Below, one piece after another: positions 1 to 33,855 of a stretch of 64,000 nt of DNA (positions within the stretch are counted from its first letter, which is position 1; each line of letters begins with the position of its first letter). Location of the stretch: positions 62,001-126,000 of the forward strand of contig JARKIF010000020.1 of NCBI GenBank assembly GCA_029378245.1. Reading direction: 5' to 3'. Position numbers and translations under genes: made by a program. The notes under the pieces were generated by a model that had not been told where the DNA came from, searched no databases, and saw only the letters and a program-made list of their open reading frames with translations. Source of the stretch: Roridomyces roridus (lineage: Eukaryota; Basidiomycota; Agaricomycetes; Agaricales; Mycenaceae).

Positions 1-188
1 TAATATTGGTCGAGACTCGTTCCAAGCGTGAAAGGTTGTCGTGCTTGCCGTGGAATATCCGAATTGGCGCGCGGAGATGAGAGTCGGGGACAAGTTAGGA
101 GGGTATCACGTGCGTGATGCCAAGTGTTTATCACGGCATTTTCGTCTTCGGACTCGGACCACCATCATCTCCCAGGGATTGCCCAGGG

Positions 189-1251
189 ATGGCTGGCCAT
201 GGTCCCCCTCGTCTTCCAATCGACCTGGAACGCAAGATTTTCGAAATGGTCGTCACCTCGCCGATGAGCTCCAAGGCCTCGACGCCGCGAGATTATCCCC
301 CGGCAGAGGCCTTGGTTTGCATGCTTGTGGCATGGCGCGTCAAACACTGGTATGCGTTCAGCTTCACACATCGCTCGTATCCACTGAAATACGAGCGGCA
401 TAGGGTCGAGCCCTTCATCCATCGCGTCATCTGTCTTTCCAGACTGGCAGATACACAATGCATCATGCGCGCCGAAGGTTTCCCTTCCATCTGGGTAGAG
501 CCTCTACTCGACCGGATCCACACCAAAGGGCCTTCCTTTTTCAGATACACCACTCATATCTTCCTCGAAAACTGGGCCTCTGAGACAAAGGCATTCGGCA
601 CGGTCGTGGATGCCTGCCCTTCCGTCCACACACTATTTTTTAACCCGGCTCGCGGAGACCCGGAGAATCTGCCGATCCTCAATCGCATGCAATCTCTCAC
701 CCGGCTGGCCTTCACCTCTGTGCTCTTCCCCGATGGCCCCATCGACTTTTCTCAGCCTCTATTCCGCAACCTCACCCACCTCGAGGTAGCACAAAACTGG
801 TCGCCCGCGGTCAGCGCGCACATCGGCGGGCACCTTGCCCTACTCCCGAACCTCACACACTTCGCTTTCTGGTCGGATCATATCGACATTCCAGTCAACT
901 CGCAGATTGTCGAGAACACCCGCTTGAAATGCATCGTGTGGATCATCGCCGACGCGATCGCGCGCAAGGGCATACCGGAAACCCATCCGAGCGCAGAAGA
1001 CGACCGGTTCGTCATGGTCAGGGTGAAGAATTTGCGTCGGGCGTGGTTCCGCGGTGCGGCGGGGCGTCGAGACCATTGGCAACTTGCAGAAGAATTTATC
1101 GCTAAGAAGAGAAGAGGGGAGATTGGGAGTATGTGTTGTCGGTTTTCGTCCTGATGAAATTGTTTCACTGATAATCCCTTTTTTTTTTTTGCCAGGGGAG
1201 CAGTATTGTACGGTCGATCCTGACGATCCGGGATGGAATTTGAGATGTTGA
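189..1251 (+). CDS. F-box/LRR-like hypothetical protein (2 exons)
   Basis: About 331 aa in two exons, 189-1128 and 1196-1251. The intron 1129-1195 (67 nt) starts GTATGT and ends in a long T run plus GCCAG. Splicing replaces a short tail that would stop at 1154 with an ending in GWNLRC. I chose the Met at 189 because LPIDLERKIFEMV follows at once, which resembles the degenerate F-box start of many basidiomycete proteins. The rest has irregular leucine-rich stretches (LTRLAFTSVLF, LTHLEV, LPNLTHFAFW) typical of the large 'F-box/LRR hypothetical' families, whose members would bind Skp1 in SCF ubiquitin ligases. An upstream in-frame Met at 114 is possible. The family assignment rests on pattern only. 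Confidence 0.6.
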
Positions 1252-1508
1252 ATGTATGTTTTAGCTGCTACCGGAAAAGCTTGGGGAAAGCCGCTACTGG
1301 AAATTTCACTGCCGGACTCCAGTGGCACTGCGTGGAGTGGTCCCACATTGCGATCGCGTGCAGCCCATCCCGATCCCATATTACTTATCTTGTCAGTTCC
1401 CAAGATTGTCCACTGTCCATTGAACGATGTCGAAAACCCCGCGGAACGATGAGTGAGTTGAACGAGTCCGTTTGGAAGCAATTTGGTGCACGTTGACAAA
1501 TGGTACCT

Positions 1509-2501
1509 CTAGATCTTTGTGAACAGGTTTCGACGGATTAATAGCCCTCCGTCCGACGTATACCAATGCCGGGCCCGATACCACTGAACCTTCTGAGCTT
1601 TCCGCCCCCAGCCCTGCCAGAAACTCAATTGGAGACGCGGAGAGCGAGTCTTTGAGGTGACACAACGTCTGAGACTGTAGATCTGCTGAGCAGCGTCGGG
1701 GACTGATTTTCTTCGGCTTCCGAAGGTGATAAACGTCCGAAGGAGAGATGCCGTAGATAATCTGGAGCGTCCTGGACATATGGTGAGATGTCTAGACGGT
1801 ATAGAGCTGGGTTGACAAGATGTGTAGCGCTCTAGTCGTTTGGAAAGCCGGGAAGATAGACGCACTCCGCATCGTTGGATATACCAATTGGTTGTCTGTG
1901 GCCCAGAGAAATGATATTGGTAACCGAGATGACTTGCGGCCGCGGGATAAAAGATAGTACGTGGGGGGATCGTCCTATTCATTCGATACATTTGGAGAGA
2001 GGAAGCCGGTCCTGAACGACGTTTATTGCCTCCAGACATATGGATTTGACAGAAGACTTTGATTCGCAGCGCCAGACGAACCCAGTGCTCCCGGAGAAAC
2101 CTCCAGTTCGGAGCAGGTCGGCGGGCGCAGTTGACATTGACAAGGACACCGAGAATTGGGCCGGGGAAGCAATTGAATGGCCCGTTGGGATGGCGCGAGA
2201 GCACGGGAAATCCGTGTTGAGATGTCGCGGTCATGTGGAGCCACGTCCAAGCTTGAGCAACGAATGTGGAAAGCAGGACGACCATCAGCAGCCTGTTTGT
2301 CCGCCTTTGTCTGATGATCAATGCGTTGTCAGCAGCTCTGCCTTCTGCCACCACGACCCGATTCGCGAGGAGTGCGCTGCTCCCACCGATGCATCTGGAA
2401 GGCCGCAATTCGTAACTCGTGAAAAGCCTTTCGAATCGATTGGGCCCTCCTAGGACGCGAGGCGATCGCAACGAGGCCACACGGCAACACCATCGTCGCA
2501 T
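1509..2501 (-). pseudogene. Decayed membrane-protein-like reading frame
   Basis: A long minus-strand open frame with no convincing start. One hydrophobic segment (NRLLMVVLLSTFVAQ, near 2270-2320) recalls a transmembrane helix of the fungal seven-helix DUF6533-type proteins, and weakly similar pieces continue in other frames further along. I could not build a consistent exon chain, so this is either a degraded copy or a chance open frame. The stretch 1252-1508 shows nothing else. Confidence 0.2.
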
Positions 2502-3424
2502 CAGCGAGGAGACATATTGCGGTGTCCCTCCCGAGGCGTACCGGTGTGGGACTATGACTTACGCCAGGTTGTCACTAATATCAGGTGCCGATCCCGAGAT
2601 GCCTCAAGAGATTAAGACGCCCAGCGCTGCTATCTCTGGCCAGAGATAGACACCCACCTTGTGTGTATCGGCATACATTCAATTGAATTTCTTGATTGAC
2701 CTTTCACTCCGGCTAGTGGTCCCTTGACAAGTGCGCCCAATCTCCGTTCATCAGCGTCCCCCACATGAAAAGCGCCCCATGACATCAATCCACAAGAAAG
2801 TTAGCTTCGCAGGTCTAGATAGGTCTGTGCATTTATTTGGAACTTCTGCTGGTCCGACCCCCCGATTCCAAGGGCAGCGTGCTAAGATAACCGTCCTCCG
2901 TGAATTACTACGCCCTGGATATGACCTTGTTTGACCTGGTCCCGCTATTTCTGCGGTTGTGCGGGGACTTGGTTGGTGAGGATATAGTGAGACTTCCACA
3001 GCCTGGCATCTGACAGTTCGCTCCCTATTTCGACAGAAAACATATCTCGAATGTCAACATTGACGCATTCACACTTTCTTCAGATGCCATCGACGGTCTG
3101 GCTTTCTGGGTCCAATTCCGAAGCGCATCCTTACCAGTGGTATGTAAGCTTTACACCACCGGTACGACTTCTCTCACCCCAAATGCGCCTCGGAGCACAA
3201 AGCCTTTCTCACACCGTCTTCGGAAAGCAGCGCACTAATGTCCCTGTACATTTATCGCAGAGATCTGTCGTCCCTTGAATGTCAAATTCCGAAAGCGAGG
3301 GAAATATGGAGCGATTCATTCGGATGTGGTACCCCTCAACACCTGTCTCAGAATCGTATAAGTACCACTCACGCCGAGTCTTCAGCTCCCATCACCGAGT
3401 CGCCAAGGCTTCGCTGCAAGGAAC
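2502..3424. other. No recognisable gene
   Basis: Only short unsupported reading frames. This is presumably the 5' intergenic and promoter region of the GATA factor gene that starts at 3425. Confidence 0.5.
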
Positions 3425-4404
3425 ATGAGCCACTTCAACCAATACGACCAGAACCAAGAGGACCAGCAGCGGTTTCGAATCAGCCGGTATAGTACGTTGG
3501 ACGGAGCTCTGAACTGTCCGTATTTCTTCTTTCACTCGAGGTTCAATTTTACTCATTGACGTCGCCTCTTGCAGTTCCTTCGAATAACGTACAGCATGGA
3601 CCAGGCCAGATGCCTTTTCAACAACCTGCACAGACCCCACCTGTGCCGATGGCGCCCGGCTCAGTTGCTCACCATCATCCCGGCGGGGCACCCCAGTACC
3701 CTGACCTTGACCAATGGGAGATGCCACCAGCTCCAAGCTTGCAGATTGCGCGGTCCCCGTCTACCGCGCCAGGCCAGCACCAATACCATCCGGGCTTCGG
3801 TGCCCAACACCCACAGCCTGCCGCTGGGCCACCGCCGCCGAGCCACACTAGCGCGCCCAATCCAGCTGGCAGACAATGCAGTCGCTGCCACACCACCGAA
3901 ACGCCGCTCTGGCGCCGAGACCCACTCACGCATGCACCGCTTTGTAACGCCTGCGGGCTCTACCTCCAACAGCGTCACGCGCACCGCCCAATGGAGCTCA
4001 TCTACGCCGACCGCGACGACGGCGGCACCGCCTCTGCCCCCACCGACGGCCGTCGGTGCAGCCATTGTGGAGTGCATCGGACAACTGTTTGGCGTCGCAA
4101 CAGGGAGGGTGATCAGGTCTGTAATGCCTGTGGTGTTTACGAACGGCTCCATAAAGTTCAGCGTCCTCTGTCACTCACGAAGCGCGGCGGAACCCCGTCC
4201 TCGCCCGAACCACTCGCATTCTTTTTAGAACAAAATGATCCTAGGTCCTCTCATATCCAGCCTATGAACCTCCCTATTTATTTAGACACGCTGATTTTCG
4301 TGTGCTTCGATTCTCCGATTCGCGATTCGTCTTTGACTTTCACTACTTGTTATAATTTTGCCCCGGACTCACCTACCAGTTTTTATAGACGAATAGACTG
4401 GTAG
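3425..4404 (+). CDS. GATA-type transcription factor with two zinc fingers
   Basis: About 298 aa in exons 3425-3491 and 3575-4404. The intron 3492-3574 (83 nt) has donor GTACGT, a branch-like TTGAC and acceptor TTGCAG. The N-terminus MSHFNQYDQNQEDQQRF is followed by a Pro/Gln/His-rich low-complexity stretch. Then come two GATA fingers: CSRC, 18 residues, CNAC (TPLWRRDP between them), and CSHC, 17 residues, CNAC (TTVWRRNREG between them). The first has the CX2CX18CX2C spacing and the second the CX2CX17CX2C spacing. Both keep the LWRR/VWRR DNA-contact motif, so binding of GATA sites in the nucleus is expected. The C-terminal tail after about residue 230 is unusual and may hide another intron or an earlier true end. 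Confidence 0.85.
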
Positions 4405-5084
4405 TTCAGTATAATTTCGATAGTGCTTTGTGCCGTTCTCTCATCTCAGTCGAACTCTACCAATTTATATTTATGTATTGGACCGTACATTCAAATTGGA
4501 CTTTGATGAACTACTAACATGTCATTTTGTTAGTCTAGGCTAAGCGAGGCACGAGTGTGCCGAAGAGTTAGGTTTTTGTCCGAGAGAGAGTCACAGGCGT
4601 GACAGCTCTGCTTCAGTCCCGCCAAAAACGGTGCCGCCGACGATCTTCAAGAGCAGAGCGCTGAGTCGTCGGTTTCCTTTCAAAGGAAACCGACGACTCA
4701 GCGCTCTTTTTTCTTTTCTGAGACATTGAGCCACACGTGCAATCGAGTTTTCCGCGGAGGCGGTGACGGCTCATGGCGCCTCCTAATACTTTGGGAATCC
4801 AACTCGATCCCCTACAAAGCTCACGCGCACTCAGCAGCACGCGTACACGTGAACCCATCAAGGCTCTCATCTTCCGCGCGCCGACACGTCCCCGAGCAGT
4901 TCGCTGGTCGCAAACCTTGCCGCATGAACTTACAACTTGACGATGGGAATTGGAGGGGCTGTCGCCGCATCCTCAGTTTATACAGCTGCGTCACTTGCTT
5001 TCCTCTTCCAGTCCACAACCATTATCTGTCCGTTTAGGTCGAACATTGCCATCGCATTCACGAAAGCATCCCGACCATGGAGGA
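4405..5084. other. Intergenic, no gene seen except a palindrome
   Basis: No supported reading frame. It contains the 53-bp palindrome listed separately. Confidence 0.5.
4655..4707. repeat. 53-bp near-perfect palindrome
   Basis: Arms 4655-4680 and 4682-4707 are 26 bp each, perfectly complementary, with one unpaired base at 4681. The right arm is followed by TTTTC. RNA from either strand would fold into a 26-bp hairpin. No coding context explains it. Confidence 0.95.
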
Positions 5085-6088
5085 GTAACAAGAACGGTGG
5101 GACTGGGACTCACTTAGCGAGTCCCAAGACAGGAGCACATGGGCTCCAGCCAACTGCAGAAAGAAGAATTCAAGGAGGCATTGTAACCGGTAGACTACCG
5201 GAGTATTGGTCATCCCTGAAACGGGCTCCATGTATCGACACTGTGAATCAATAATGCACACGTACAGTGTCACCGATGTCTTCTTTGAGGGCCACTTCAA
5301 CCGAGGAGAAATATCTCTACTATGTAGTTTCAAAGTCCTTGGGAATACGAGCAAACTGTTTCAATTTTCCTCTGGCCGGAGCGCCGAGTGATCACATTGT
5401 CGGCAACACCAGTGGCCGAGATCACTCAGTGGTAGGGCTCCGACCCGACCGTCAAAATGACGGGTCAACGAGCCGTCGCGACGGGTGCCGGCCCGGCCGT
5501 ACAGCCCTCTGAAGCCAGAATTTTGACGGCCGGGTCCGGGTCCGGTTCCTTGGCTGACGGGGTACCCGTTCCCGGCCGTCGACGGGCCATGACGGGTGGT
5601 GACGGGTCTTCGGCTAACTAGCCATGCCGAGCTGCCATCATCACTTGATGCTCCAGGGGTAGCGCACCTGGGTCATCGGCAATCTTGCTGATGGCCCACT
5701 ACTGCGGTTCTGCAGGCTTCCCGAGTACCAATCGGTCCAATCCGTAATTTTGACTTGCCGGCATCACGTTGACATCAATCTGATGGTCGATTTAGCTGGA
5801 GGCACGGGCTGTCAGGGGCTGTCACTGCTTCGACCCGTCATGACGGCCGTGACGGGTCTGACGGGTACCACCCGGCCGTTTTGAGGCCTCGCAACATGGT
5901 CTGACGGCCGGGTGGGGCCCGTCCGACCTCCCATGACGGCCGTCAGAGCGACGGCCGTCGCCGTCAACGGCCGGGTCGGAGCCCTACTCAGTGGGACTCG
6001 CGCCATCACGGTGGGACTCGAGCCCTGCTCGGCAAATTAGCCGAGCGTTAAGCGAATCCCAGTCCCACCGTTCTCGTATATACTCCTG
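5085..6088. repeat. Outer inverted repeat around the hAT MITE
   Basis: The left arm starts near 5085 and contains GAACGGTGGGACTGGGA at 5093-5109. The right arm carries its reverse complement ending near 6073, and an AGGAGTA stretch outside both copies also matches. The pair encloses about 1 kb, including the complete MITE at 5433-5986. It is probably an older MITE that was later hit by the hAT element. I could not fix its ends or find a target duplication. Confidence 0.6.
5433..5986. mobile_element. hAT-type MITE, 554 bp, 8-bp TSD
   Basis: Terminal inverted repeats begin TAGGGCTCCGACCCG (15 bp identical; 19 of 20 with the next bases). The element is flanked by the perfect 8-bp duplication CTCAGTGG at 5425-5432 and 5987-5994. 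Eight-bp duplications and T/CAGGG ends are diagnostic of hAT elements. The interior carries many direct and inverted GACGGGTC/GACGGCCG motifs and no coding capacity, so it must depend on a transposase encoded elsewhere. Confidence 0.9.
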
Positions 6089-6715
6089 ACCATGCGCCTC
6101 CACCAACAATCGTACTCGCCCTGTTGCTGCAGCTGCGGCGCGACAAACGACGGATATCAACACTACCTGCTTTTGAGGGCCAGTGCTTTGCATGGCAATC
6201 CGAGTCTGATCTTGGGTTGATTTTGGGCGTTCATTTTGTGCCTGACGAGCTTGGCTACATAGCTGTATGGTGCCAGGAGCCTCGAATCAAGACTTTGAGA
6301 GGTCATAGGCATAGCACCAAGGTAGGACCAGATGCATAACTTGGTGTCGGACTTGATGTACTCATGTAAGTACATAAGACAAGAGTTGGACAAGAGTGTA
6401 TGGCTGTTACTGAGTTTGAACCTAACAGTGGGAGCTGCGAGCAAGCGGGGTGAAGGGTTCCTTGCACCAGAAGAACAAATGAGTCACTGGATGTTGAGCG
6501 GTCGATCCAAGGCAAATGTCGAATGCGTTCTGGTGGGAACCAAGAGATGGACTGTCAACGGAACAGAACTGTCATCGGTGTCAAACCGAAAGTCCAGACT
6601 CCGGACCCGTTCTGCGTCGGTCAATCTCCTATCGAAGGCCGGCGGAAGTAAGGCAGAGATACGTGTTCATGGTGTAAGAGTGAATGACCAAGAAGCGACC
6701 AAATCGAGACAGAAG
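6089..6715. other. Intergenic, no gene seen
   Basis: Short reading frames only, with no family resemblance and no plausible splice chain. Confidence 0.5.
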
Positions 6716-28157: not shown

Positions 28158-28337
28158 ATGGCGACCAACTTGAAAACAAAGTACCCGGCAGAATTTAGAA
28201 ACTTGGCAAGTTCCAGCGACGACAAGAGTCTGACCCCCAAGTGCGAGTCTGCGATAGAGGACAAAGAAGGCGCTGAATGCGAGAGGGCACCCGAGGTCAC
28301 AGTGCTCGGACAAGCTGAGTTAGTCGTCGTCGTCATG
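28158..28337 (+). pseudogene. Left half of a reading frame split by the integrase/alpha-kinase element
   Basis: Sixty codons from a Met at 28158 (MATNLKTKYPAEFRN...) end exactly at the element border, the last six bases being the target duplication GTCATG. After the element the frame reopens in register at 33562 (see there). No family is recognised, and whether this was ever an expressed gene is uncertain. Confidence 0.35.
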
Positions 28338-28455
28338 TACGGTAAGCGAGACGGTTGAGGTTCGTTTCCAGGCTGAGAGATGTCAGATGTCAAACCTGTC
28401 GGATAGATAACCGTGATAATCATCAATCTATCAGCGGCCGGGATGTTATCACTGA
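28338..28455 (+). repeat. Left terminal inverted repeat (118 bp)
   Basis: Matches the reverse complement of 33441-33558 at 115 of 118 positions. A hairpin CTCGGCAA...TTGCCGAG lies just inside at about 28472-28493. Confidence 0.95.
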
Positions 28456-28679
28456 TGATCTCTGTTCCGTACTCGGCAAGATGATTTGCCGAGCGTGTGT
28501 TGCATGTGATGTCTGTTGCGCAAATCATGTAAAATGAAGACTGTTCCACTGATTGAAGTGCTCTACATTAGAACAGTAAGCCTGAGCAATACCAGAATGC
28601 TCAGTTTGGAATCAGTGATGAAATCACAAGCAGATCAAAAAGGTAGAGCTCAATTGTTCGGACACGCTACTCAGTACAG

Positions 28680-31174
28680 CTAGTCATCGCCGACATCCTG
28701 GTCATCGCCGTCTTCACCAGGACCCGCGCCCTCTGATCCAGAAGCCTCAGTTGCATCTGGGCCCGGAATATCTGCCGGGAGCTCCAAGGGGAAGATGTCG
28801 TCAAACTCGAGCCGTTTGCACAACTGGTTGCACTGGTGAGTGTTGATGAAAGACTCAATACCCTCGAGACCAAAGTCTCCAAGGCCGGAACCCCTGTATA
28901 AAAACATTAATTTAGAGCAATGAGACTAGGGACAGACACTCACCCGTCTTGAGTGTGGGTCATGACATCAAACAAAACCAAACCATCATGACCACGGACC
29001 GTAGCGGGGGTTCCTTGAATATCAGCCATAACAAGTGTTCCGGTGGCGGAACCGAACACATAATGTGCAAAGCTGTGAATGGTGAGGTGCGTGAGGTCGG
29101 AGCCACGAGCCTTGTGGTTGAGTGTGGAGGTGAATTGAATGACAGCCGCCGCACGCTTGGGCTCAACCATCCACGTCATTCCCTCATCCTCGAAGCTATC
29201 AAGGCCAGAGGCCACGCTGGGTGAGCGGGTCACTTGAACCAGCATCTCTTGGGCAAGGTAGGCTGAGGAAAACTCGATGACTAGACTATAGTTTAGGGCA
29301 GTCTTTGAGAAAGGGTCACGGTGACGCACAGTTAAAAATTGCAACATCCATCTCCTTGCAATATGCCACAAAATCTCCAAAGAGTTCCCTGCCCAGAGCG
29401 AGACGGTGGCACTCGGATTCAAGTAGCGCACGATTATGCACCACAGACACGCCGTTAGAGAGCGAGTGAGAATCGTCATCGGATGTACGGTAGATACGCT
29501 TGGCAACAGCGCGTTCCTCCTTGTCGTTGACAAAGATGGTCATCTGGGTGGAGAAATGAGTTGCAGTTCAGCCCATGCAAATTAACCACGCACATCATAT
29601 GCAAGTTTGGAACCGCCCTTGGCAAAATGCACGTCGTCGATGACTGCTTCAATTTGCCCAGACTTCTGGATGAGTTCTGGCTCGTACTGGGGTGGATGGA
29701 CGGAGATGTCACATCTCTCAAGTGTTACACGCGACTGAGTCTTGGGTGTCATAAGTGCGGGAGTGCGGCTGGAGCCGGCGGCACCAAAGCGCGACCCAAG
29801 GGTTGAACCGATGTCTAGAAAAAAGTAGAAACAAGATGAGACAAAGCCCGTAGAAATTTCACGCAATAGACATACTTGAATTGGTCAGTGCACGAAGACG
29901 CTTACTGAGGCCCCCAGAACTGGTACCCGAGATGGCGCGCTTTCGACTGGTAGAATTTGGTTCGTCTACATTGAGGTTGCGTGCCACCGCATCGAGCTCT
30001 TCACGATCTCCGTACTAAGAAAAGTTAAAACCTGAGTCAATATAAGACAGGCATTCACGCACCGAGTCCATGTTCACCACCAACTCGAGGCAGAGTAGCT
30101 TCGTATTATGGCCCCGGGCAAGGGTGCGGAAGATACTGGGAATATTGTTAACGTACGTCGCAATTTTCTCAGTTGTTGAGGAATGCATCATATAGAAATT
30201 GGCCAAACTGCCGGTCATTGAGTTGGGTTCGGGAAGGCGATTGCCGGACCAGCGTAGATCAACGTCGCCACTACATGAGATGGAATGAGATCAAAGGTAT
30301 GTACGCAAGACGAGAGCAGTGGACTTACATCTCAAGTGGGAGCATCCCAAGCTTGTACTTGACAAATTGCGGCGACACAACATCAACAATTTCTTGAACG
30401 AGGTCTATCAAATACCATTAGATGAGTTGAAAACTTTTTTTGGCAAGAGAAATACATACCTGGCATGGGGATGGACGACCGGTACAGCTTGATGAGGTTG
30501 CCAATCTTGGTATTGGTTGCCTTTGAGTCGCTCATGCGAGTCTACAACATGTTCAGTTGAACAAACAGGCAGTTACTGTGAGGAGGAGAAGAACATACCA
30601 TTACTGCAAGCCGAATCATATCCTCCGCCTGGCCACCAGTCCCTCCCTCGTGGAAGATCAGAGCGGCCGTGTGCAACGAAGTGCCGGCTCTGGTGGTGCC
30701 CACAGAAGTACGCAAGCGCTGTTTCATGGCAGCAGCGCGGGCCTCATAAGTCTCCGGCACACTGTTTGTGTTGTTGTTGTTGGATGTCGATCCGCCTTAG
30801 CCCCAGTCATCAAAGGTAGGAATGAAGAAAGGAACAGAAGAAAAACATACCCTGGGTGCCGGAAGTGGCACTACCATTCTCCTTCCGAGCCTCGTCGACA
30901 CAGCGGGAAGCACCACAGGTCTGGATGGTGCCAATCAACGGCATGTTGTTGCGGCGTGTGAGGCCGCAAAAGGCGCACTGCGGTTGTTCCTGCCACACAG
31001 TAGTCAGAATGGGTATTGTTGGGTCCACAGATCACTTACCTCAAGCTGCTGGTAGTCTGCAGTGTCGCGTTTAAACTGAGACAACTTCTCGCACTTTTGA
31101 CAGATACTGTCATCGGTGCGGAGACGGAAAGTGGTCCCACAGTCGGAACATTCGGAGGGTGCGGTCTCGGTCAT
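28680..31174 (-). CDS. Alpha-kinase with N-terminal zinc ribbons, carried by the transposon
   Basis: About 653 aa in eleven exons (31174-31040, 30989-30851, 30795-30599, 30541-30460, 30404-30329, 30270-30063, 30014-29876, 29814-29594, 29543-29330, 29280-28944, 28893-28680); all phases agree. Residues 1-90 hold paired Cys motifs (CSDC/CQKC, CAFC/CGASRC), a zinc-ribbon-like start. The kinase domain spans about 380-625: the ATP-site Lys is in RAVAKRIYR (about 414), followed by WMVEP, HSFAHYVFG, GTLVMADIQG with the catalytic Asp, LVLFDVMTHT and GSGLGDFGLEGI. The HQCNQLC end would complete the structural zinc site typical of MHCK/eEF2K-type atypical kinases. The tail is acidic. The domain looks catalytically complete. 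Its role in transposition or in the host is unknown. Confidence 0.88.
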
Positions 31175-31784
31175 TCCAGAGTTAGTTATTTGGGGGAAGT
31201 TCAGTGAAAGACTGGGAAGGGACCTTCGTGCTTTTAAATCTCGTGAATGGTCGGTTAAGTTTGAGCAGCTTGAGCATCCTAGGCGGCGCCAGTGATGCGC
31301 TTTCAGCTGAACGGAGTAAGTGTCGACGGGGTTGTGCAAAGCAAAAGAAAAAAAAGACGGACTTGAACGGACCTTGGACCAACTGTGAATTACGGAGTGG
31401 AACGGGAATGAGCCGCCGACTGGAATTCAACGGACTGGAACGGACTGATTCGGGTGGACGGACTTGACCGGATTGCTTTGCAAGAATTGGCTTGGCTTGA
31501 ACAACGGACTGGAACGGGCTTGAACAGGGAACAACTAATAGAATGATTAGCATGATTACTTCCCAATCGACTAACCGCTGTTCAACACAAGTTCAACAAC
31601 AATTGAAAGGATTACTCACCTGTATGCTCAGTCAGCCACCAACGGCCCCGGCATGTTGGGATGTGCATTAGACGATACAATCGTCCGCTCGGCACCTCCA
31701 TGATGTTTCCAGGTGCGTCGGAATATTGTGACTTAAAAGCTCAGCGAGAAAAATATCCCTTTCATAACGCACCCACCAAACACG
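31175..31784. promoter_or_regulatory. Bidirectional promoter region with repeated GGACTGGAACGG-like words
   Basis: The 610 bp between the divergent kinase and integrase starts. Between about 31360 and 31540 it repeats variants of ACGGACTGGAACGG and CTTGAAC at least five times. Such short direct repeats could bind the integrase or a shared regulator. The function is inferred from position only. Confidence 0.45.
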
Positions 31785-33379
31785 ATGCCAAATCCTACTG
31801 GCAAAAATGGGCATCCATCTCAAGACCGTGAGTTTGCAATGACACATCTCCCAGTTGAATCCTGATAATTCCTTAGCTCCCGACGATGAGAAGCTTCGGG
31901 AGGCCCTCCTCAAATATGCACGGCAGGGATTAAGTCGCGAGCACCAGATTTCGGCTTTGGCGTCCAATTTCAAGTATCATATTAGGTGTGTTCGATGTTC
32001 GCTACCGCTTTGGCTGTCTGATGATTTTTTTCTCAGACTAAGCTCTCTCCGCAAACTCAAAGAACGGCTCGGCATCAAAGCCAGTGTGCGCACGCAGAAG
32101 CTGTCCGTGGACCAGGTCAGACAAGCCGTTGTTGATGTGGTGGAGAGGGATCCCGCTCAGCTGCGTGGACCGGCATTCATCAAAGACCAACTTCGTCTCA
32201 AAATGCTATTTGCTCCCCGGTGTGTTACTATCTTCTCCACAGCAATTCAGCTGAAAAATCCGCAAGTGATCTTATCCGCCAAATCATGGTTGAACACTAC
32301 CCCGGTGGCTTCGAAGTTCGCTTCCCTGGCCGCAAGAACCGTCGCGTAATTCGTGTTCCTCTGCGTGCGAGTGGTCCGTACTATGAAATTAGTAGTGATG
32401 GACATGAGAAACTCGCACCTGCTGCTCTCCGCATGGGTGGAGTGGGCTTTTCCATCTACGCATTCAAAGACAAATTCACCGATGCACTGGTTTTCATCAA
32501 AGTTTTATCAGACATACGTAGCGCCGGGGCTGGGGGGCACATTTTCCTTGACTTTGTTGAGCACACCGGATGTGAGTACTTTAACTCAGAAGTGTCTGAC
32601 CGTTCACTCACAAAGCATTCCTTTTATCGCAGTCATTCCCATCCAACTGACGACGGATAAGGGTTCTGAGGTTGGATGGATCTATGCATTTATGGCGGCA
32701 CTGAGGTATGTGGTCCATAATTTGCGGCACATCCGCTGACCCTCTTTTGTCAGAGAGATGTATGCCCCCGACATCGATCCAGCACTATATCCATTCCATG
32801 TCCTGATCAAGAGTGTTCATAACACTGTAATTGAAGGATTTTGGCGGCACTTGAAGGAGAAGTTGGGTTTGAATTTGAAGGATTATCTGTTGAGAGGCCG
32901 GGCGGAGCATCTGTTCAACCCTCATGATCCATTACACGAGTAAGTTTAATCAACTCAGCCTGCCCTGTGATTTGACTTACATTGGGTAATGTAGGCCTCT
33001 TTTCTATTGGATCTTTTCTCCTCTCATCCAGCGGGAACTGGATGATTTTGCCGACTGGTGGAACAATCATCGCGTTCGACACCAGCACGACAAGATAATG
33101 CCGTCGGGGCATGTCCCATCGCACGCTATGGAGTATCCTGAACTGTTTGGGGCGCTTGACTGTCGAATCAAAGTCCCCCAGGTTGCAATTGATGCACTGC
33201 GGGATCAGATCAGTGGTGAGGAAGGTCCTAAATCACAGTTTCAAAGCTGGCCAGGCCTCACGGCAGAGTTTGATGTGTATGCATGCCGGGTTTATGAGGA
33301 GATTGGAGAACCCACTCTTACTATGGAAACAGGTTGGGATGTGTTTGTTAATATGACTGTTGCAATGACTGTGGCGTAG
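31785..33379 (+). CDS. Integrase-core (DDE) transposase
   Basis: About 427 aa in seven exons (31785-31827, 31877-31985, 32037-32219, 32267-32571, 32633-32705, 32754-32939, 32995-33379); introns 47-61 nt, all phases consistent. The start MPNPTGKNGHPSQD and the helical region about 15-120 fit a DNA-binding N-terminus. The catalytic core has Asp in EISSDGHEKL (about 156), Asp in TTDKGSEVGW (about 222) and Glu in HNTVIEGFWRHLKEK (about 265). This retroviral-integrase (rve) fold appears in the basidiomycete 'integrase core domain' proteins; the C-terminus (DWWNNHRVRHQHDKIMPSGH, ALDCRIKVP) also follows that family. It sits inside TIRs and next to the alpha-kinase, so it is the likely transposase. 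Confidence 0.9.
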
Positions 33380-33440
33380 CTAGAATACCATGTTCGATGC
33401 ACTCATACCACATCACTTCCGTTGAGTTGGCCGAGTAGCC

Positions 33441-33558
33441 TCAATGATAACATCCCGGCTGCTGATAGATTGATGATTATCACGGTTATCTATCCGACAG
33501 GTTTGACATCTGACATCTCTCAACCTGGAAACGAACCTCAACCGTCTCGCTTACCGTA
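33441..33558 (-). repeat. Right terminal inverted repeat (118 bp)
   Basis: Reverse complement of 28338-28455 with 3 differences; followed directly by the GTCATG duplication. Confidence 0.95.
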
Positions 33559-33561
33559 GTC

Positions 33562-33855
33562 ATGGTGGCCGCTCCGAAGAGGCGGGGTGACACAATTGAT
33601 CGCCGCTCTAGATCAATCAATCACGTCACCTCTTGTTTCCTGCCACCATTTGCATTCTTGCATTCTTGCAGCCCCTCATTCACTGACCCTGTGTCGGCGC
33701 GGATCCTGAGACCTGACCCTCACTTGTTTCCGACGCCGGCGCCATTCCCCTCGACAAAACGATGCTGGGAGGCAGCGAGATGTTATCTGCGCGCCATGTC
33801 AGAGACGCGCTCAACGGACGGATTGAATGCTTCGAGACTATCGCCGCTGGTTTGA
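33562..33855 (+). pseudogene. Right half of the split reading frame
   Basis: After the second GTCATG copy the frame of 28158-28337 continues in register (VAAPKRRGDTIDRRSRS...) and stops at 33855. Because the duplication is 6 bp long, it keeps the frame. No domain is recognised. Confidence 0.3.

Follow-up and report, generated by a model that had tools for sequence, protein, structure and literature searches.

Why should a DNA transposon carry a gene for a protein kinase? This question is raised by an element located at 28338-33558 of a 64-kb window (the whole stretch of DNA that was analyzed) from the genome of Roridomyces roridus, a member of Mycenaceae, Agaricales. The interior of the element, 5,221 bp in total, is filled by two divergent genes, one for a transposase of the integrase type and the other for an alpha-kinase. 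Apparently, it is an autonomous two-gene cut-and-paste DNA transposon of the IS3EU type. The best overall explanation, in which we have good confidence, has the kinase as a conserved accessory of such an element; its most likely target, a more tentative choice, would be the transposase or its complex.

Structure, mobility and family of the element

The features are arranged in the window as follows:

28332..28337, no strand: left target-site duplication (TSD), GTCATG
28338..28455, plus strand: left terminal inverted repeat (TIR), 118 bp, starting with TACGGTAAGC
28680..31174, minus strand: alpha-kinase gene, 11 exons with GT...AG splicing, 653 aa, PF02816, protein deposited
31175..31784: 610 bp between the two start codons, presumably a shared divergent promoter
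31785..33379, plus strand: IS3EU-type DDE transposase gene, 7 exons, 427 aa, D156/D222/E265
33441..33558, minus strand: right TIR, 118 bp, terminal CTTACCGTA
33559..33564, no strand: right TSD, GTCATG

The two 118-nt TIRs are 97% complementary with 3 mismatches and no gaps, and the termini of the element read TACGG...CCGTA. These repeats, the perfect 6-bp GTCATG and the presence of exactly two intact divergent genes had all been reported in a preliminary description of the locus made from its sequence, and every one of them was verified. Both gene models are spliced via GT...AG introns. The kinase model is the same as a deposited R. roridus protein, P0121 (100% identity, 653 aa), and the deposited transposase differs from the model in one intron-boundary choice of eight residues and in one substitution.

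The R. roridus assembly (90.8 Mb, 501 contigs) contains five occurrences of the first 143 bases of the element at 100% and five of the opposite TIR at 97%, the latter with two extra tandem copies. They belong to five full copies: the window copy (C113:90338-95558), C442:2498452-2503672, C13:299188-304407, and an inverted pair at C113:735869-741212 and 747790-753133. Each of the remaining four shares 99.8-99.9% identity with the window copy. Each of the three single insertions has its own perfect 6-bp TSD (GTCATG in the window, GACCAG and GTAGAT). Both genes are present in all five copies; the transposase frame is open in five and the kinase frame in four. Furthermore, a paralogous empty site, 80% identical to the insertion site, was recovered at C113:163373-163906, where the sequence is continuous with a single GTCATG. 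Because of the TSDs, the empty site and the near-identical copies, it is clear that a TIR-bounded unit with an open gene pair has moved recently with a 6-bp TSD. The preliminary description had proposed a search for such an empty site, and had regarded a unique TIR pair with both genes syntenic in relatives, or the integrase found repeatedly inside the same TIRs lacking the kinase, as evidence against its view; instead, copies lie at different sites with different TSDs, and both genes accompany each other in five of five full copies, one with a broken kinase frame. A chance TIR or a plain pair of host genes is ruled out by the five copies and the empty site.

By analogy with its family, the transposase would recognize the 118-bp TIRs and insert the element via a 6-bp staggered cut, and the movement would be of the cut-and-paste type. 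Alone among the five, the window copy has a missense change in the transposase (window position 32508), giving S193 where the other four have P; this position is P in at least 90% of 39 aligned sequences. A 185-bp miniature inverted-repeat transposable element (MITE) with TIR-like ends and a TSD, ATCTAC, is found at C46:607128-607312 and C122:14114-14298, probably one locus represented on two contigs.

To which family does the element belong? The transposase has the integrase-type DDE fold (D156/D222/E265), as the preliminary description had recognized, and this fold would by itself fit the affiliation suggested there, Ginger, with the kinase as a new acquisition. Ginger1 and Ginger2 have a 4-bp TSD and TGT...ACA ends, and membership in either is rejected on the 6-bp TSD and the TAC...GTA ends. 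IS3EU, grouped with GingerRoot, is described as having TA...TA ends and a TSD of usually 6 bp (PMC10045372). The present element shares with it these ends, the 6-bp TSD, the integrase fold and the absence of an HHCC motif before the core, the first cysteine of the transposase being residue 356; the word "kinase" has no occurrence in the main text of that paper, and the element here has one.

A closer likeness is found in the TET+ IS3EU families of Pucciniales and Tuber indicum, that is, of rusts and a truffle. In all of them, a TET/JBP gene lies between oppositely oriented transposase and alpha-kinase genes (Kojima 2025, PMC12730594). Thus, the kinase pairing, of which the preliminary description knew no case, is already in print for these families. 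Their 6-bp TSDs, TAYGG...CCRTA ends and TIRs longer than 30 bp (PMC12730594) are those of the element, with its TACGG...CCGTA ends, its 118-bp TIRs, the 6-bp TSD of each of the three single insertions and the ATCGCC that borders a composite unit (see below), and its alpha-kinase gene is likewise opposite in orientation to the transposase gene. The difference is in the middle: the TET+ families have the TET/JBP gene between the two (PMC12730594), whereas a Pfam scan of five open frames in the 610-bp region here gave neither a TET/JBP match nor any other match above threshold, and sub-threshold zinc-ribbon matches near this region fall in the first exon of the kinase itself. The hosts also differ, since R. 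roridus is an Agaricomycete.

By every general criterion testable on the sequence (TSD, ends, fold, and no HHCC motif upstream of the core), the element is a member of IS3EU; two related loci, C458 and C390, deviate from the 6-bp TSD with 7 bp. A Ginger-type element with a newly captured kinase is extremely improbable: the 6-bp TSD together with TAYGG...CCRTA ends is the signature of IS3EU, the head-to-head pairing recurs at 14 other loci in the genome, and the same pairing is reported for TET+ IS3EU families (PMC12730594).

Linkage of the alpha-kinase to IS3EU-type transposases

Outside the five copies, at least 16 loci in the genome match the alpha-kinase. An IS3EU-type transposase match lies within 10 kb at 15 of the 16 other loci detected; at 14 the two are head-to-head, and at one (C201) they are on the same strand. 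Several relatives are bounded by TIRs and TSDs, and in each of them the two genes are present, if only as remnants left by deletion:

C101:889658-892427: TSD CACGAC; in this 2.8-kb derivative each gene is truncated
C13:1795540-1801114: TSD GACATG
C480:2310579-2316520: TSD CACGGC
C458:382934-388145: 7-bp TSD ACCAGTA
C390:263637-265568: 7-bp TSD AGCGCTA
C201:561287-570831: TSD TATGGA, a 9.5-kb IS3EU element

At two further loci (C334:1490k and C257) both genes are present, and inspection of 7-8 kb revealed no TIR pair. The duplications of C458 and C390 were at one time read as a 6-bp TSD with an extra left base, a reading dropped on closer look since they are exact 7-bp duplications; perhaps they mark a sub-lineage whose staggered cut is wider. 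The C201 element has two kinase-like genes: the one with the alpha-kinase domain is on the transposase strand, and that on the other strand has only weak matches.

The divergence of the two proteins is also congruent. Kinase and transposase identity matrices from 11 pairs are correlated in a Mantel test (r = 0.88, p = 5e-5, 20,000 label shuffles); the pairs come from the window, six other loci of the R. roridus genome and four Mycena species, with C480 dropped for missing values and with no contig information for the M. chlorophos pair. In three Mycena species (3 of 10 kinase rows), relatives of the kinase and the transposase apparently share a contig, a linkage at the level of the contig only. 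The simplest reading of these sequence comparisons, and a well supported one, is that both genes have descended as a pair across deep divergences. Because of this linkage and congruence, the kinase would be a long-standing co-inherited accessory, not a recent cargo; of the options left in the preliminary description, that of a conserved partner is favored.

Several points weigh against such a partnership. The copy at C13:299188-304407 has an open transposase and a kinase frame disrupted by a one-base deletion, indicating that the kinase is not required in cis for the persistence of every copy. Within its TIRs and TSD, C480 has an open-looking transposase and a truncated kinase; it was considered as a kinase-free IS3EU element, and this was rejected because it corresponds to the C201 element minus 3.6 kb of the interior, that is, a deletion derivative. 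Around the alpha-kinase at C20:35037, a stretch of 7 kb gave no match to the transposase, and the transposase fragment of C490 has no kinase match within 7 kb. Nor are the 16 loci independent, as C13, C112 and C334 score alike, and likewise C1, C301 and C469; several are copies of a single family. Much of the Mantel correlation stems from one close cluster (the four Mycena pairs together with C101 and the window) set against the rest. Transposase matches outside the five full copies amount to 50 loci (collapsed from 97 rows), of which 18 were inspected (the 15 kinase partners, C480, C390 and C490); some of the other 32 are strong PF24764 matches and may be another lineage. Finally, the argument that alpha-kinases keep to IS3EU, taken up below, covers the loci of this genome. 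In addition to the loci counted here, two weak matches to the kinase C-terminus were seen at C468:106322 and C135:546019.

The alpha-kinase and its possible target

Residues 390-608 of the kinase match PF02816 (E = 1.4e-24; score 87.6 bits, cut-off 21.3), which bears out the identification as an alpha-kinase in the preliminary description. MHCK A and eEF2 kinase match it in sequence over about residues 525-614. The alpha-kinase domain is C-terminal, and the N-terminal part contains zinc-ribbon-like CxxC pairs; a basic stretch resembling a nuclear localization signal (NLS) is also found. When the kinase of the element is aligned with nine relatives (10 sequences in all), D557 and Q559 are present in all, K414 in nine (with a gap in one), E441 in nine and D575 in eight, and H and C of the HxCNxxC zinc site are retained in 9 or 10. 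The identities of the catalytic Lys, Asp and Gln are those we assume from MHCK/TRPM7. The six counted cysteines of the N-terminal CxxC pairs are kept in 5 of 10; the N-terminal end is absent from four gene models, and P0129 is without one cysteine. The basic stretch, RKR...KRxR, occurs in 7 of 10, and from its pattern is a putative NLS.

With PF02816 above cut-off, the Lys/Asp/Gln residues and HxCNxxC, the protein is predicted to be a kinase of the alpha family. It resembles the MHCK/eEF2K alpha-kinases (PF02816; PDB 3lkm, 7shq) in the C-terminal domain, DxQG and HxCNxxC, and differs from them in being transposon-borne and in the CxxC pairs and the NLS-like stretch, which lie outside the part matching the solved kinases. 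The AlphaFold model, made with 10 sequences, is poor (mean predicted local distance difference test score, pLDDT, 42.8; predicted template modeling score, pTM, 0.30). An alignment search for distant relatives gave 13 proteins, 12 of them from Roridomyces or Mycena, and did not reach the rust kinases.

This conservation bears on whether the kinase is a mere passenger, acquired once by an ancestor and having no role in transposition. The C13 copy with its broken kinase frame would fit a passenger, as would the deletion derivatives and the TSD-flanked MITE, which have no complete kinase and are presumably mobilized in trans. Neutral cargo, however, would be expected to decay, and relatives at 41-70% identity keep the catalytic residues; moreover, each TIR/TSD-bounded element examined has a kinase gene or its remnant, and the divergence of the kinase tracks that of the transposase. 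We regard the passenger reading as rather unlikely.

If the kinase is an accessory with a role, what would it phosphorylate? It may enter the nucleus and there phosphorylate the IS3EU transposase or the complex of the transposase with DNA, thereby setting the timing or the amount of transposition. Such a substrate is our tentative choice, and on the same tentative footing the alpha-kinase could be dedicated to regulating the transposition of IS3EU, as a switch that the transposon owns for its transposase. An IS3EU-specific substrate is suggested by a difference between two kinds of accessory genes: the TET/JBP genes of IS3EU elements pass between superfamilies (PMC12730594), whereas the alpha-kinases of this genome keep to IS3EU-type transposases.

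Or the kinase may be a conserved accessory with a target in the host, phosphorylating silencing, chromatin or repair proteins and so shielding the element. This is a serious possibility, whose weight is similar to that of an element-specific target. The preliminary description had raised both the integrase and chromatin as substrates, by way of speculation. In rusts, IS3EU elements carry TET/JBP genes, which are proposed to counter silencing by methylation (PMC12730594). The NLS-like stretch (7 of 10) and the N-terminal CxxC pairs would suit a nuclear factor of either kind. On the other hand, a generally useful anti-silencing gene might be expected to spread among superfamilies as the TET/JBP genes do, and 15 of the 16 loci keep one type of transposase. 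The explanation preferred overall is the conserved accessory kinase, with the transposase or its complex as the candidate substrate.

A composite unit, and implications for fungal alpha-kinases

There is a more complicated case in the same genome. At C113:735869-753133, 6,577 bp of host DNA are enclosed by the inverted pair of copies mentioned above, the whole forming a unit of 17,265 bp. Over 5,344 bp the two copies show 100% identity, and in both the right TIR is tandemly repeated on the inner side. Neither has its own TSD, and the outer flanks of the unit share the 6-bp ATCGCC. Bases 1-5493 of the interior match C455:230971-236472 (identity 100), and the interior matches C491:556724-562817 at 97% save for a nested insertion; in both places no elements are found at the junctions. 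The nested repeat (interior bases 6014-6528) is missing from the C491 copy, and parts of it match many places in the genome. The outer flanks, when joined, give a continuous reading of a reverse transcriptase, which we take from its motifs to be that of Copia, and a 73%-identical copy at C431:17528-17904 is uninterrupted at the insertion point. The interior also encodes a stretch that matches C-5 cytosine methylase (PF00145; E = 3.5e-5; score 23.8 bits, cut-off 22).

Because of the shared outer TSD, the element-free interior elsewhere and the uninterrupted copy at C431, the 17.3-kb unit, as assembled, seems to have been inserted as one piece carrying host DNA, an assembly error being possible. 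A simple inversion between two independent insertions is rejected, since an inversion would demand a correspondence between inner and outer flanks that the inner ones (GGCTGG and CACCAT) do not show, and the outer flanks match each other. Bacterial composite transposons insert as one piece. A likeness is also seen to the composite insertions of maize Ac (PMC4270019).

The novelty of the present element is that of a TET-free, kinase-bearing IS3EU in an Agaricomycete, together with the evidence for the kinase as a long-standing partner. The pairing was not found reported for Agaricomycetes in the literature searched, most subscription papers and Repbase, which may hold such families, being outside the search. 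The case for a partner gene is stronger here than in searchable print.

Alpha-kinases have been noticed in rust genomes: PF02816 is entered in a table with the counts 79 and 39, one in each of two columns, and is called highly expanded in rusts (PMC4469406), and a table of a wheat-rust paper gives PF02816 with values of 2.34 and 3.50E-02 (PMC5295586). By extension, these published kinases may be genes of IS3EU elements. In R. roridus, nearly every alpha-kinase detected adjoins an IS3EU-type transposase (the five copies and 15 of the 16 others). A short published remark on fungal transposons thus becomes a testable partnership, and a young element whose two reading frames are both open is material for asking about the role of a transposon-encoded kinase. 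If the kinase does regulate IS3EU transposition, the alpha-kinase expansions of rusts, and of mushrooms such as R. roridus, would largely be regulators of transposons, not signaling proteins of the host.

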